DNA from: Hydrogenovibrio sp. JE_KL2
GTDB lineage: Bacteria > Pseudomonadota > Gammaproteobacteria > Thiomicrospirales > Thiomicrospiraceae
Direction: 5' to 3'
Length of the DNA stretch: 64,000 nucleotides
Assembly: GCF_009296185.1 (NCBI RefSeq)
Contig: NZ_WBJR01000001.1
Location: 310,001 to 374,000, forward strand
Shown here: positions 56,291-64,000 of the stretch, piece by piece
Numbering within the stretch: the first letter of the stretch is position 1
Layout: each line of letters opens with the position of its first letter
The notes under the pieces: generated by a model
The model's database searches: none
Seen by the model: the letters and a program-made list of their open reading frames with translations, nothing else
Told to the model about the DNA's origin: nothing
Position numbers and translations under genes: made by a program

Positions 56291-56782
56291 TTAAGAGCCA
56301 AGTACGAATTTAGCATTGAGCGCTCTTAGTAATTCATGTGTACTAATACAAGGTACAGCAAATTCTTGGCATATATTTGGAACTTTAACCTTTTTGGTGT
56401 TAGGTTCTAAACGGGATTCGTGACTGACTACAGTCGCACCGATTGATTTTGCTTTAGCAATGATCCAAGGGTCAGCTTTTGCAAGAAAATGGTCTCTATT
56501 ACCACTGTTATAGTTTCCAGCCATAACAAAAGCAGCAATTTGAGTAAAAATTTGTTGTGTGGGGTTATCATCGTTTGTTATGAAATGATCTGGACGGTCT
56601 TTTGCCCATTCTGCTAATTCATCATCTCCCGCTTTTAGTTCTTCTCCGATCATATTAATGCTGCCAAGCTCTCCGTATGCAAATTGCTGATCCAGCCATT
56701 CCCAATAAGCTGGACATATATCCATTCCGTAATATTGGTTTTTTGCTTGTATATATGTGTTGGAGTCTAGTAAATACTTCAA
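56291..56782 (-). CDS. PIN-type nuclease toxin candidate (DUF4411)
   Basis: The 163-aa protein begins MKYLLDSNTYIQAK, with the early Asp of PIN-domain RNases (Asp6), and contains DPWIIAKAKSIGATVVSHE, typical of the DUF4411 branch. It starts at a TTG that overlaps the TGA of the HTH gene (TTGA), so translation is coupled. The pairing with an HTH-ImmA/IrrE protein is a known toxin-antitoxin arrangement. Toxicity here is inferred, not shown. Confidence 0.8.
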   Translation of the reverse strand: MKYLLDSNTYIQAKNQYYGMDICPAYWEWLDQQFAYGELGSINMIGEELKAGDDELAEWAKDRPDHFITNDDNPTQQIFTQIAAFVMAGNYNSGNRDHFLAKADPWIIAKAKSIGATVVSHESRLEPNTKKVKVPNICQEFAVPCISTHELLRALNAKFVLGS

Positions 56783-57921
56783 ATTTGCAACTCCTTAGCA
56801 AATTTGGAGATGTTGCTAGGTTTCATCCCTAATAACTGACCCGCTTCTCGCAAAAGAACTTGGCCATTTAATGCTTGGCTAACAACAGCTCTAGAAAAGT
56901 TTTGGCTGATTTGTGCTTTTTTCGTTCTGTAATAATTTGGGCCTCCGTTTCCAGAACGTTCTCGGTTTTTATATGCTTCTTTTTCATCATTAATATAAGA
57001 GACATAGTCTTGATGAGAAATAAAATGACACGTTAGTGCGCGTCTAGCTAAAGCCCATTTGCTTACATGGAAATGGGATTCTAAAACGGGCAAGTTTTCA
57101 CGCCAATTATCCAAGTCTGCTTGCCAGAGTTGAATAAATTCAGCTTCGGGAACTAAAAACTCAGCTGCGACGGCATTGCATAAAATCTCTTCATTTCTGT
57201 GTGTTTGTGGGTCACCATTAGATATGCCTGATTGGCCGATCCAAATATGGCAAAGTTCGTGGATCAGGGTAAATAAGCGAGCCCCTGGAGCATCAGCATG
57301 GTTAATAAAAATCATAGGTGCGTATTCATCAGCAATGGCAAACCCTCTGAACTCGCTAACTTGTAGAGGGCGGGTAAAATGTCCTAAGTCCGCTTGCCGC
57401 ATAACCAATATGCCAATGGATTCAATTTTAGCTACTAGTTCTCGATAATAATTTTCCCAATCACCTCGAACAGGGTGGATAGCGACTTGTAGTTTTTCTC
57501 GCATATCAGAAACAATTTCTGAAACATCATGTCGATTAGAAAAGCTATTAACAATTTGATTAGGTTCGGCAAATTGCTGCTTTAAATAATCTTTATACCA
57601 ATCTTGTCGTTGCAACATTAGCTTGATTAAATCAAAAAGCTCTGCGCTTGGACGACTTACTCCTTGCCCATCGAGTGTTCTGAGATCAGGAATAGGAAGC
57701 TCTTCCATAGGAGGAGCTTCTAAGAAAAGATATCCGAAAGGGATGTGTGCTCTATGAGCAAAAGTAATAGCTTGTTTAAATGTTAAAGCCCGTTGACCTG
57801 TTTCCCACTGTGTTAGGCGATCTTCAGGTTTTTGCAGCGTCCTAGCAAATTCAGATACAGAAAAACCTAAGCGCTCACGCGCCCAAATCAGAATTTCAGG
57901 ATTGATATTTGCTGTAGACAT
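56779..57921 (-). CDS. XRE-HTH / ImmA-IrrE metallopeptidase (antitoxin-like)
   Basis: The 380-aa protein has an N-terminal XRE helix-turn-helix (about 10-62) and a central ImmA/IrrE zinc-peptidase domain with HELCH (221-225), plus a further acidic ligand near 254 (ILCNAVAAEFLVPE). The C-terminus ends in a short helix-turn-helix-like stretch (REAGQLLGMKPSNISKFAKEL). Such proteins act as repressors and proteases of partner toxins in COG2856-type modules. AAGGAA precedes the ATG. The coding style is AT-rich compared with the core genes. Confidence 0.85.
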   Translation of the reverse strand: MSTANINPEILIWARERLGFSVSEFARTLQKPEDRLTQWETGQRALTFKQAITFAHRAHIPFGYLFLEAPPMEELPIPDLRTLDGQGVSRPSAELFDLIKLMLQRQDWYKDYLKQQFAEPNQIVNSFSNRHDVSEIVSDMREKLQVAIHPVRGDWENYYRELVAKIESIGILVMRQADLGHFTRPLQVSEFRGFAIADEYAPMIFINHADAPGARLFTLIHELCHIWIGQSGISNGDPQTHRNEEILCNAVAAEFLVPEAEFIQLWQADLDNWRENLPVLESHFHVSKWALARRALTCHFISHQDYVSYINDEKEAYKNRERSGNGGPNYYRTKKAQISQNFSRAVVSQALNGQVLLREAGQLLGMKPSNISKFAKELQI

Positions 57922-59847: not shown

Positions 59848-60492
59848 ATGTCTTTAACGTCTCTTATTTCGGAATATGGCTATTGGGCCATTCTCGTGGG
59901 TACTTTTCTGGAAGGTGAAACCATTCTTGTATTAGGTGGTTTGGCTGCCCATAGTGGTTATCTGGATCTGACAACCGTCATCGCGGTGGCATTTGTCGGC
60001 TCTTTGAGTGGTGACCAGCTTTACTTTTATATCGGCCGGGCAAAGGGCATGGATTTTATCGAGAAACGCCCACGCTGGCACAAACCAACTCAAAAGGTCT
60101 TTGATTTATTACACCGTCATCAGGTGCCATTGATTTTAGGCTTCCGTTTTTTGTATGGGTTGAGAAGTGTGACGCCTTTTGCGATAGGTGCCAGCGGCAT
60201 CTCGCCAGTACGTTTTTTGATTTTGAATGCCATCGGTGCTTTGATTTGGGCGATTACCGTTGGTACTTTGGGCTACTTGTTCGGTCAGGTCGTTGAAAGT
60301 GTGATGGGCGAAATCAAGAAGTACGAAATGTGGCTGTTGGGCGGCATTGCGATTTTGGCAGTTTTGGCCTGGTTAGCACGCTATGTCTGGACGGGCAAAC
60401 AAGCCAAGAAAGAAGCGGTTGTGGATGAAGTTGACGCTGATGCTGATGCGGCGCAAGCGCCCAATTCCACTCAGCAAAACTCAGTTAAATAA
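59848..60492 (+). CDS. DedA-family membrane protein
   Basis: The 214-aa protein is a DedA (SNARE-associated) inner-membrane protein. Members flip or scramble lipids such as undecaprenyl phosphate or phosphatidylethanolamine. Visible motifs are FLEGETILVLGG, GDQLYFYIGR near 50-60 and FRFLYGLRSVTPFAIG near 92-107 with the conserved Arg residues. About five membrane segments are predicted. The C-terminal tail is acidic and low-complexity. It is followed by the minus-strand lipid-like cluster. Confidence 0.9.
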   Translation: MSLTSLISEYGYWAILVGTFLEGETILVLGGLAAHSGYLDLTTVIAVAFVGSLSGDQLYFYIGRAKGMDFIEKRPRWHKPTQKVFDLLHRHQVPLILGFRFLYGLRSVTPFAIGASGISPVRFLILNAIGALIWAITVGTLGYLFGQVVESVMGEIKKYEMWLLGGIAILAVLAWLARYVWTGKQAKKEAVVDEVDADADAAQAPNSTQQNSVK

Positions 60493-60498
60493 TCTGTT

Positions 60499-61710
60499 TT
60501 AAATCTGGTGCTGCTCGAACATTTTCGGCGCGTAACGGTTTACCAGCCAAGAAAAGCTTGCATGAATGGCTTTACGATGCCAAGGCAAGTGGCGGCAATA
60601 AAAAGCGGTGTATTCCAGTGTTGGTTCACCGCCTCGTGCTCTTTTGAAGCCACCCGCGCCAGAACTCAAATTCATCGGTTGCTTGCGCTCATGCGTTAAG
60701 CGCAATAAAACCGCTATCAGCAATCTGTAAAGTCCTAACTCCTGCGGTAAATCCGTGTCGTAGCCAACAATCGGTGTGGTGATGATGTTCTGTTGAGTAA
60801 ACAATCCGATGGAAGCAACAATGCGTCCGGTTTCATCGGTAAAGCTGTGGAATTCAACCATTTCATTGTCGTGCAAGGCTTTTAAGAAATCCGCGCTAAA
60901 CTGCGGGTTATAGCGCGAGTGTTTTTCGATAAACAGTTGATGAAAACACTGTGAGATTTCTGCAAAGTGTTGCGGTTTCAAACGCTCTGGCTTTAGCCAG
61001 CTTAAAGACGTTTTGCCCGCTTCAACTTTGCGCAGTAAGGATTGATCTTTCTTGGTGTGATTACGTTTCCACCAAGTTTGATGCGTTTCAAACAAATAGA
61101 CCTGACGAGCGGGAATCAACAGCCAACCTTGGTCGGACAATGTTTGCATCAGCTCTGTGTTATGAGTGGCGTTCAAGGAACGGATACTCAGCGAATGGGT
61201 AGGGAAATCTTTAACGAGACGTTGCGTGGTTTTGTTCAACTCATAAGGGTTGAGTTTGGGTAATAGGTTGGTCGATACCAGCCAATTATTCAGTGACAGG
61301 GTGCGGTTGAGCTTTGCGAGTTTCAGAAAACTGCCGGCTATAGTCATGCCTGCGCCAATTAGGCTTTGCAATACGCGGTTATTGAGAAGTCCCAGCTCGT
61401 CTTTCGCATAGCTGATATAAGCGGTGTAAGGCGAGCAGACATAGCTGTTTTCATACTCGGTGTCATTGATGCTCATTGGCAAGATGGTATTGCCCACCGT
61501 CACCAGTTTATAGTTGGTTTGAATATTGTCTATTGGTGCTTGGCGAAAGAGGTCGACATACCTTTCAGCCTGAACGCTCGATAGGAACTCAAGGGCTGAG
61601 GTATTTAACTCAGGTTTATGATCTGCGCTGCCTTGGTGAGAAGTCAGCGCGGCATCATGTTTGTCGTTCAGAAGAGGGTGCTTACTGGTGATAATAGACA
61701 TGGACACCAC
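60499..61710 (-). CDS. GNAT-like acyltransferase, unknown substrate
   Basis: The 403-aa protein has an N-terminal region without an obvious fold. The C-terminal half resembles GNAT/BioF2-type transferases: FHSFTDETGRIVASIGLF and the conserved GLYRLLIAVLL helix and SSGAGGFKRARGG loop. I cannot name the substrate. The start overlaps the DUF3419 gene by 29 bases (a Met three codons later gives 20 bases), so the two are translationally coupled. The gene partner suggests modification of a lipid or amino-acid headgroup; this is inference only. Confidence 0.65.
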   Translation of the reverse strand: MVSMSIITSKHPLLNDKHDAALTSHQGSADHKPELNTSALEFLSSVQAERYVDLFRQAPIDNIQTNYKLVTVGNTILPMSINDTEYENSYVCSPYTAYISYAKDELGLLNNRVLQSLIGAGMTIAGSFLKLAKLNRTLSLNNWLVSTNLLPKLNPYELNKTTQRLVKDFPTHSLSIRSLNATHNTELMQTLSDQGWLLIPARQVYLFETHQTWWKRNHTKKDQSLLRKVEAGKTSLSWLKPERLKPQHFAEISQCFHQLFIEKHSRYNPQFSADFLKALHDNEMVEFHSFTDETGRIVASIGLFTQQNIITTPIVGYDTDLPQELGLYRLLIAVLLRLTHERKQPMNLSSGAGGFKRARGGEPTLEYTAFYCRHLPWHRKAIHASFSWLVNRYAPKMFEQHQI

Positions 61711-62986
61711 CGTAGATTGCTGAACGATCTTTTAATGTCCAAGCACGGTTTTGTTCAATGTCAGTTTGCCATGGCGCAAGAATGTGCTCTGGGAGTTTAT
61801 CTTCTAATGGAGAGACTTCGCCCGCAGTTCTAAAGACCACACGTGCACCTGGCTTGGCAGTACGATTTACTTCTTGCCAAAGTTCGGTCAATTGGTTTTC
61901 GTCCATCCAGTCTTGCGCGTCCAAGAACAAGTAAGCGTTCAGGCTGTTATCTGGCATGGCTTTGAGCCTGTCTGTCATCGACTGATGAAAGACTTCAACA
62001 TGGTCTTGATTCTGTTTTAGCGTCCCAAAGTGTTCTGCCATTAAATATCTTGGAACTGCAAGGCGACGTTTTACGTCATAGCTTCTATTGAAAGCCTGCC
62101 ATGCGAAATAGTTGGTTTCTAGAGGAAAGTCACATGCTAGACGGCGAGCCCGCTCTTTCATCAACTCATGCATCCCCAGTTTCATTTGCTTGGATTCCTT
62201 GTCCATCTCATCAAATTGAGCGGGCGGAATCCCCAAGCTGTACATGACAATCGAACGGCTACACAGGAATTTCAATAGACGTGTTTCAAATACTGGTGCG
62301 ACGTGTTCGTTGAATAGCGCTTGCTGTTCTTCAGCAGTGTGTGCCAGCATCACTTTGCTGATGTCATAACCATAGAGTTTGCACACCCAGTGAATCAAAC
62401 CGATAAAACGCCCCAACAAGCCGTGGCGGTAAAAGCCGTCAGTAAAATAGTGAATGCGCGGTTTTGACCAGAAGTTTTCCTTGGTTTCCCAATATTGGCG
62501 AGTCTTTTCATCCAAATGTTGGGAAAGTTTGCCGTAGTAGGTATCTAGGTTTTTGGTAAGGTCGGCTTTACCGAAGAAGTCAAAAAATGCTTCCTGTTCC
62601 AAATGTTGGATTGCAGCCAGCTTTAGTTTGATTAACGCGATATGTGCTTCGTTCAGGTCAACCACTGTAATGGATTCTGGTTTTACCGTCAGGTAGTTCA
62701 ATGCATTACAACCACCGGAAGAAATGGTGAAAACGTGAGAGTGTTCGTCTAGCCCGAGTGCTTGAATATCGACTTCAGGGTCTTCCCAGATTTGAGGGTA
62801 AACCAAACGATCGAACCATTTGGTAAACAGTCTGTCCAACAAGCCTTTGCGGCTGAAAATGGAGGTGTTGTTGACAGCGGACTTGAGTAATTCTTTGGTC
62901 GCTTTGGTTGGTTGTTCATTTTCAGGGTTGGTTTCTAAGCCGGTTTCAACGGTTGGGCTGGATAAGCTCATGGTTCTCACTTTCAT
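61682..62986 (-). CDS. DUF3419 protein, BtaA-like amino-carboxypropyl transferase
   Basis: This 434-aa protein belongs to DUF3419. BtaA of this family transfers the 3-amino-3-carboxypropyl group of SAM to diacylglycerol in betaine-lipid synthesis. Motifs include YPQIWEDPEVD near 68, SSGGCNALNYL near 90 for SAM binding and TVVDLNEAH near 106. The C-terminal part contains DAQDWM and FRTAGE. The usual BtaB methyltransferase is absent next to it, and the neighbour is a GNAT-like protein instead. A second Met five codons in has a better ribosome site (GTGAGA). Confidence 0.8.
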   Translation of the reverse strand: MKVRTMSLSSPTVETGLETNPENEQPTKATKELLKSAVNNTSIFSRKGLLDRLFTKWFDRLVYPQIWEDPEVDIQALGLDEHSHVFTISSGGCNALNYLTVKPESITVVDLNEAHIALIKLKLAAIQHLEQEAFFDFFGKADLTKNLDTYYGKLSQHLDEKTRQYWETKENFWSKPRIHYFTDGFYRHGLLGRFIGLIHWVCKLYGYDISKVMLAHTAEEQQALFNEHVAPVFETRLLKFLCSRSIVMYSLGIPPAQFDEMDKESKQMKLGMHELMKERARRLACDFPLETNYFAWQAFNRSYDVKRRLAVPRYLMAEHFGTLKQNQDHVEVFHQSMTDRLKAMPDNSLNAYLFLDAQDWMDENQLTELWQEVNRTAKPGARVVFRTAGEVSPLEDKLPEHILAPWQTDIEQNRAWTLKDRSAIYGGVHVYYHQ

Positions 62987-63084
62987 CTAAATTGCATTAG
63001 ACAATAACTTAACCGTCAAATATGAAGAAACCATGACCAAAACAAAGAAGTTATGTGACGAATTTGTGATGGGATTATGACAGT

Positions 63085-63106
63085 AAAACCGAAGAAACAT
63101 CTTCGG
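63085..63106 (-). terminator. Hairpin after the glycosyltransferase gene
   Basis: On the minus strand CCGAAG pairs with CTTCGG around ATGTTT and is followed by TTTTAC. It lies 18 bases after the glycosyltransferase stop, so the DUF3419 gene probably has its own promoter in the 137-bp gap. Confidence 0.6.
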
Positions 63107-63123
63107 CTTGCACTAATAAAAAC

Positions 63124-64000
63124 TCAGTCTTCGTTCCAATCAATATAGCTCAGGTTACCGAGGAACTGGTCTGCCGCTTCATCCCAAGTTAAACCACCGA
63201 TAGAGTCCGCAACCAGGCTACGATCCAACGTTAAACATTGCTCAACGGCGACTTTGAGGTCGTCGTCCATCCAGCCGTTCAGTCCTTGGGTGATGATGTC
63301 TTTTGGGCCAGTCACAGGGAAGGCGGCAACCGGTAAACCACAGGCAATGGCTTCAATGTTTACCACCCCATAAGTGTCGGTTAGGGAAGGGAAGACAAAG
63401 ACATCTGCACTGGCGTAGTAGGTCGCCAATTCTTCTCCGAATTTAGCGCCGACAAAAACCGCATCAGGATAGCGTTCTTGCAGTTCTTCCAGTAGTGGTC
63501 CACGACCAACAACCACCTTGGTGCCGGGTAAGTCTAAGTCTAAAAAGGTTTCCAGATTTTTTTCCGGTGCAACGCGTCCAACCGATAGATAGATGGGTTT
63601 CGGAAAGTCCATTTCAATACGGCGGTTTGGGTTAAAGGTGTCGGTATCGACGCCACGGGTGACAACCGTCAAAGACTTGAAGCCATGTTCTTTCAGCTCT
63701 TTAAGCGTCGACTCCGAAGGCACATAAGTCATCTGCCCTTTGTTGTGGAAGCGTCTTAATAAGGAGTAAATCCAACTCGCAGGCACGGGAAAACGCTGAT
63801 GAATGTACTCAGGATATTTGGTGTGGTAACCCGTGGTGAACGGCAGTTTGTGTTTCAAGCAAATGTTGCGAGCACGCCATCCCAAACCACCTTCAGTAGC
63901 GATATGAATGGCATCAGGAAGAAAATCCAATAGGCGTCTTTCAAGGTTCTCTGCTGACCAGACGACTGGGATTTCAGGGTAGGTCGGCATGGGGAAGAAT
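63124..64000 (-). CDS. GT4 glycosyltransferase, partial (N-terminus outside window)
   Basis: The gene is open to the right edge. The codons before the first visible ATG read FFP, and the family has a similar FPLPxYP stretch there, so the true start lies beyond 64000. About 290 residues are visible. They include the donor-binding domain with SVGRVAPEKNLE, VVVGRGPLLEELQ and the PSLTDTYGVVNIEAIACGLP loop, and the N-terminal-domain segment GLGWRARNICLKHKLPF. The closest known types are SqdX/MgtA-like and the Agt glycosyltransferases that make glycolipids under phosphate limitation. Its lipid role here is inferred from the DUF3419 neighbour. Confidence 0.85.
   Translation of the reverse strand, partial: FFPMPTYPEIPVVWSAENLERRLLDFLPDAIHIATEGGLGWRARNICLKHKLPFTTGYHTKYPEYIHQRFPVPASWIYSLLRRFHNKGQMTYVPSESTLKELKEHGFKSLTVVTRGVDTDTFNPNRRIEMDFPKPIYLSVGRVAPEKNLETFLDLDLPGTKVVVGRGPLLEELQERYPDAVFVGAKFGEELATYYASADVFVFPSLTDTYGVVNIEAIACGLPVAAFPVTGPKDIITQGLNGWMDDDLKVAVEQCLTLDRSLVADSIGGLTWDEAADQFLGNLSYIDWNED

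Follow-up and report, generated by a model that had tools for sequence, protein, structure and literature searches.

A tandem-GNAT transferase in the place of BtaB: a possible aminoacylated homoserine lipid in Hydrogenovibrio sp. JE_KL2 and its relatives

The subject of this analysis is a stretch of 64,000 nucleotides of the sulphur-oxidising bacterium Hydrogenovibrio sp. JE_KL2 (hereafter the window: bases 310001-374000 of contig 1; the genome comprises 2.44 Mb), and within it a locus that is the known plcP/agt/btaA set of genes of the phosphate-starvation response. In this locus, as gene neighbourhoods support well, the methyltransferase BtaB has been exchanged for a transferase with a predicted tandem GNAT fold, encoded in the same slot. 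The pathway itself is known, and the exchange is a new variant of it. A membrane lipid as yet undescribed is the probable product in these bacteria. We give roughly even chances to the proposal as a whole, that is, to a Pho-controlled locus in which a tandem-GNAT enzyme stands in for BtaB and most likely draws on an aminoacyl-tRNA donor. The gene content, the adjacency of the genes, the exclusivity towards btaB, the predicted fold and the Pho-box footprint are direct observations.

The locus and the exchange of BtaB

On the minus strand the genes follow each other in the order GT4, a gap of 137 bp, btaA and the GNAT-like gene. The btaA gene (61682..62986, minus strand, 434 aa) is assigned to the S-adenosylmethionine:diacylglycerol 3-amino-3-carboxypropyl transferase (DUF3419) by a full-length match to PF11899 (E 1.7e-106, 357 bits, positions 4-383 of 385) and by 41% identity to the BtaA of Rhizobium leguminosarum, whose gene adjoins that of a BtaB; with BtaA proteins that have BtaB partners the identity is about 41-52%. 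It is the only DUF3419 copy in the genome, and a sequence search of solved structures returned no relatives of it. The gene of the GNAT-like transferase (60499..61701, minus strand, 400 aa from ATG), recognized by its open reading frame, an AlphaFold2 model, matches of the model in PDB and adjacency to DUF3419, starts 20 nt before the btaA stop is completed; an alternative GTG start at 61710 would give 403 aa. The 20-nt overlap is kept in the closest relatives and is replaced by short gaps in most others. Wherever one of the two genes occurs in the family (19 genomes), the other lies next to it on the same strand, and the arrangement is therefore not due to chance. Named organisms with related loci belong to Hydrogenovibrio, Thiomicrorhabdus and Thiomicrospira.

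Upstream of btaA lies an Agt-like GT4 glycosyltransferase gene (63124..64000, minus strand, matching PF13692, PF00534 and PF13439), which continues to the window-equivalent position 64212 (L002:5125-6213), so that its start is 212 bases beyond the window end. Just outside the window and divergent from it is a gene of a PlcP-type metallophosphatase (L002:6249-7259), an LpxH-like protein far under the LpxH cut-off (57.7 bits against 134); the true LpxH is encoded at L002:7747-8496, about 0.5 kb past the end of the metallophosphatase gene. PlcP is encoded near btaA in relatives too. A metallophosphatase, a GT4 and BtaA together make up the plcP/agt/btaA set of phosphorus-starved marine bacteria (PMC4796936). 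The activities of BtaA, PlcP and Agt are predicted here from family membership. The sequence-only reading, which had recognized a BtaA-like gene, an overlapping GNAT-like gene, a GT4 of the phosphate-starvation type and no BtaB beside them, was right on each of these points: the GT4 has an Agt-like character and a PlcP neighbour, and no methyltransferase gene adjoins btaA.

The search for btaB in the whole genome, which that reading had set beforehand as a refuting test, found no ortholog, nor is there one in the 18 close relatives carrying the pair. The matches to R. leguminosarum BtaB in the genome are UbiE, BioC, PrmA and one unassigned methyltransferase (L037). A BtaB profile built from 18 sequences gave about 44-54 bits in btaA-carrying genomes of the window's family (f1), not above its scores in the btaA-less ones. 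Of the 35 genomes of this family, 19 combine btaA with the GNAT-like gene and the other 16 lack both.

The neighbours of BtaA were surveyed in 369 genomes sampled from the class and 398 from the phylum (Pseudomonadota), a BtaA being taken as full-length at 320 bits or more. In 49 distinct genomes with such a BtaA, the adjacent gene was btaB in 46 cases and the GNAT-like gene in three; none had both and none lacked both. A further btaA-GNAT pair, also with a GT4 upstream (L139), comes from outside the family (genome G091). The broad search for GNAT proteins in the 369 class genomes found them beside DUF3419 in G000, G013 and G091 only, and as scattered fragments in G061, a genome without a DUF3419 match. 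In other Gammaproteobacteria (L148-L154) we observed weaker DUF3419 matches (about 200-250 bits, mostly about 375 aa), with neither btaB nor a GNAT-like gene adjacent; these proteins probably form another subfamily.

The closest known counterpart is the BtaA-BtaB pathway to the betaine lipid diacylglyceryltrimethylhomoserine (DGTS), with the plcP neighbourhoods that Sebastian et al. (PMC4796936) assigned to types 1 and 2. These share BtaA, PlcP, the Agt-like GT4 and Pho boxes with the window locus. Two loci of the same layout, L182 and L183, read plcP-agt-btaA-btaB, with btaB in the position of the GNAT-like gene and with a GT4 between plcP and btaA that is 46-47% identical to that of the window. 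The window locus differs from this pathway in having no BtaB and a tandem-GNAT transferase in its stead. No report of the BtaA-GNAT pair was found in the open-licence literature.

Fold, donor and competing explanations

From its sequence, the GNAT-like protein is only weakly recognizable as such (PF13480, E 0.018, under the gathering score), and neither it nor its profile found relatives among the sequences of solved structures. The AlphaFold2 model, computed with 45 relatives, is of high quality (predicted local distance difference test, pLDDT, 90.4; predicted template modelling score, pTM, 0.87) and consists of two GNAT-like halves; the tandem GNAT reading follows from the matches of this model to solved structures. 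The best PDB matches are Sbb17/Sba18 (Z 16.6-16.3), FemX (16.5-15.8) and MprF (14.4), and the 12 best VIA-align matches are without exception aminoacyl-tRNA-dependent transferases. With enzymes of the Fem, MprF and Sbb17 type the protein shares the tandem GNAT fold, across some 250 residues (Z about 13-17), and, by motif, a Phe-Lys late in the second domain. The differences are a sequence identity of only 8-16% and the lack of the MprF membrane domain; none of the 45 members matches PF02388 (FemAB), even with E allowed up to 1, and the donor and acceptor are predictions. Two relatives match PF04339 (FemAB_like). A library of viral structures gave generic GNAT, FemAB and N-myristoyltransferase matches only.

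All 45 members have Lys353, and Phe352 is nearly invariant. In FemX and DhpH such a lysine acts in catalysis (PMC12945691), and FemAB proteins align with FemX at an F-K. At the place of the canonical loop that binds the pyrophosphate of coenzyme A (CoA), the family has an invariant Tyr instead of Gly/Ala (G323-L-Y325). The CoA-loop pattern does occur in the C-terminal half of 6 of the 45 members, by letters at SSGA and RGG motifs and not at the loop. The absence of the canonical loop at its usual place, together with the fold and the F-K, favours an aminoacyl-tRNA donor, short of proof.

The pathway that we propose is as follows. Under phosphate starvation PlcP would cut off the phospholipid head group to give diacylglycerol, which either would be glycosylated by the Agt-like GT4 or would receive from BtaA the 3-amino-3-carboxypropyl group of S-adenosylmethionine to become diacylglyceryl-homoserine. 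The usual following step, N-trimethylation by BtaB, is missing; instead, the tandem-GNAT transferase would act on diacylglyceryl-homoserine at its free alpha-amino group. Most likely an aminoacyl-tRNA would serve as donor, an amide bond being made as by Fem, MprF and Sbb17; Phe352 and Lys353 are candidates for the catalytic pair, and the product would be an aminoacyl- (dipeptide-like) homoserine lipid. Both the amino group as the target and the identity of the donor are what we infer.

Several points weigh against this pathway. A shared fold shows no function, and the model is also matched, at Z 12-14, by tandem GNATs that depend on CoA donors (mycothiol synthase, VipF, N-myristoyltransferase). 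Furthermore, the profile comparison, made with two FemAB proteins only, gave no meaningful alignment, so that K353 and the FemX Lys305 are equated by motif; and the literature searched yielded neither lipid nor enzyme data on these bacteria.

The same facts lend themselves to a second explanation, in which the locus and the target are the same and the donor is acyl-CoA, acyl carrier protein-bound acyl or acetyl-CoA, the product being an N-acylated, possibly three-chain, diacylglyceryl-homoserine. We consider it possible, on the lower side: CoA-donor tandem GNATs include a long-chain enzyme, N-myristoyltransferase (Z 12.0), in bacterial ceramide synthesis the acylation of a lipid amine is demonstrably within the power of a dedicated N-acyltransferase (PMC11324152, PMC11087976), and the ATP-grasp clusters described below hold fatty-chain enzymes too (KASIII, OleD-like). 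The ceramide synthase in question (CC_1154/bCerS) resembles the GNAT-like protein in being soluble or peripheral and in presumably acting on a lipid precursor at its amine; its acceptor and gene context differ. On the other hand, the closest folds are aminoacyl-tRNA-dependent, the expected site has no canonical CoA pyrophosphate loop, and the protein does not match PF13444, the domain common to known aminolipid N-acyltransferases (PMC11631085). With those of the OlsB/GlsB/OlsF type it shares the GNAT superfamily and a connection with amino-acid-containing phosphorus-free lipids, and it differs from them in the tandem fold and in being linked to BtaA instead of an O-acyltransferase. Of the earlier proposal, three parts have held up: a locus for phosphorus-free lipid (given PlcP, the Agt-like GT4, the Pho boxes and PhoB), the absence of BtaB, which extends to the whole genome, and the place of the GNAT-like gene in the BtaB slot. 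As to the product, an aminoacylated homoserine lipid is at least as likely as the N-acylated one.

That DGTS is still made, with the BtaB step performed by an unrelated methyltransferase encoded elsewhere and an accessory function for the GNAT-like protein, appears unlikely. The genome encodes several class I methyltransferases, and non-orthologous ones are beyond the reach of sequence comparison. However, an accessory role sits badly with the strict mutual exclusion of btaB and the GNAT-like gene, and the only unassigned BtaB-like match does not track btaA: L037, tried as a hidden BtaB, was rejected, being absent in 5 btaA genomes and present in 6 btaA-less ones. We thus put an aminoacyl-homoserine lipid ahead of an N-acyl-homoserine lipid, with ordinary DGTS as an unlikely third. 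Least credible of all is that the DUF3419 protein uses another acceptor and yields a secreted or signalling metabolite, as a divergent DUF3419 with a GNAT-like gene in a cluster resembling natural-product synthesis (KASIII, OleD, metallo-beta-lactamase, adenylase) on Shinella and Rhizobium plasmids might suggest, since the Shinella form shares no more than 23% identity with the window BtaA, which is full length, close to its BtaB-partnered counterparts, near PlcP and the Agt-like gene and under Pho boxes.

Pho boxes and neighbouring genes

Pho boxes were judged by consensus and conservation. The candidate box upstream of btaA (63051..63083, minus strand) consists of three 11-bp repeats, CTGTCATAATC CCATCACAAAT TCGTCACATAA, and gives a 12/14 match to the 18-mer consensus; there are two such matches in the 64 kb. 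In 24 distinct btaA upstream regions of relatives the mean best score on the coding strand was 11.58/14, compared with 8.63 for shuffled regions (the maximum of 500 shuffled sets being 9.21) and 9.0 for the other strand. A score of at least 11 was reached by 21 of the 24 regions on the coding strand vs 1 of 24 on the other. The plcP upstream regions, mostly operon-internal and used as a negative control, had a mean of 9.0. The interval that separates the GT4 gene from plcP contains a weaker repeat, TTGTCATCTAACCGACATTTAACTGTGAT. PhoB is encoded in the genome, above the family cut-off. We propose, from these sequence signals, that this lipid-remodelling set is under the control of PhoB.

A second route to a phosphorus-free lipid is indicated by the gene of OlsF, the bifunctional ornithine lipid synthase (L185:520-2244; G000 contig 2, about 152,400-154,100), which scores 815.8 bits (cut-off 620). 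It is the sole PF13444 protein of the genome, and ornithine lipid is probably made as well.

As for the surroundings of the locus, a gene of a DedA/VTT-domain membrane protein (59848-60492, plus strand) is convergent with the GNAT-like gene at a distance of 6 bp and occupies that place among the closest relatives only. Farther off (56291-57921, minus strand) is a pair of genes. One product combines a helix-turn-helix with a zinc-peptidase-like motif (LIHELCHIW), the other is a PIN-like protein of 163 aa, and judged by its sequence the pair reads like a type II toxin-antitoxin system.

The wider family and the meaning of the exchange

Most of the 80 GNAT-like loci, which come from many phyla, lie in clusters with KASIII, an OleD-like reductase, a protein of the metallo-beta-lactamase fold and a TIGR02304 adenylating enzyme (L048-L117, e.g. 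L048:2466-9029, and L022, L023, L025, L029 and L030). An ATP-grasp protein (PRK06849) is nearly always present in these clusters and a Rieske protein often; the hosts are Paenibacillaceae, Shewanella, Planctomycetota, Opitutaceae, Ralstonia and others. On the Shinella and Rhizobium plasmids the divergent DUF3419 takes the place of the ATP-grasp, directly before the GNAT-like gene. Two genes are exceptions, with neither DUF3419 nor ATP-grasp nearby (L042:5979-7184 and L066:7923-9083); the protein of the former is 53% identical to that of the window, and its contig belongs to a metagenome-assembled genome labelled Synechococcaceae. In the tree the BtaA-linked members form one clade of moderate support (86/79), with the Shinella/Rhizobium pair apart, and the link to DUF3419 may have a single origin. 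The common thread, we infer, is that a partner enzyme supplies an amino-acid-like group on which the GNAT-like enzyme then acts. It is a tentative suggestion, to which we give somewhat less than even odds, that a lineage of chemolithoautotrophs makes, as a phosphorus-free membrane lipid not yet described, an aminoacylated (dipeptide-head-group) diacylglyceryl-homoserine by means of a tRNA-dependent GNAT replacing BtaB, and that the same family works with an ATP-grasp protein in an uncharacterised cluster across many phyla.

To our knowledge, a tRNA-dependent step in the remodelling of lipids under phosphate starvation would be new, none having been found in the open-licence literature. The system is open to direct test, as cultivated strains of Hydrogenovibrio and Thiomicrorhabdus exist. 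BtaA serves as a genetic marker for DGTS; if its product goes to another enzyme in these bacteria, then such genomes are being misread, and a class of lipids is missing from the lipidomic libraries for bacteria of vents and sediments.

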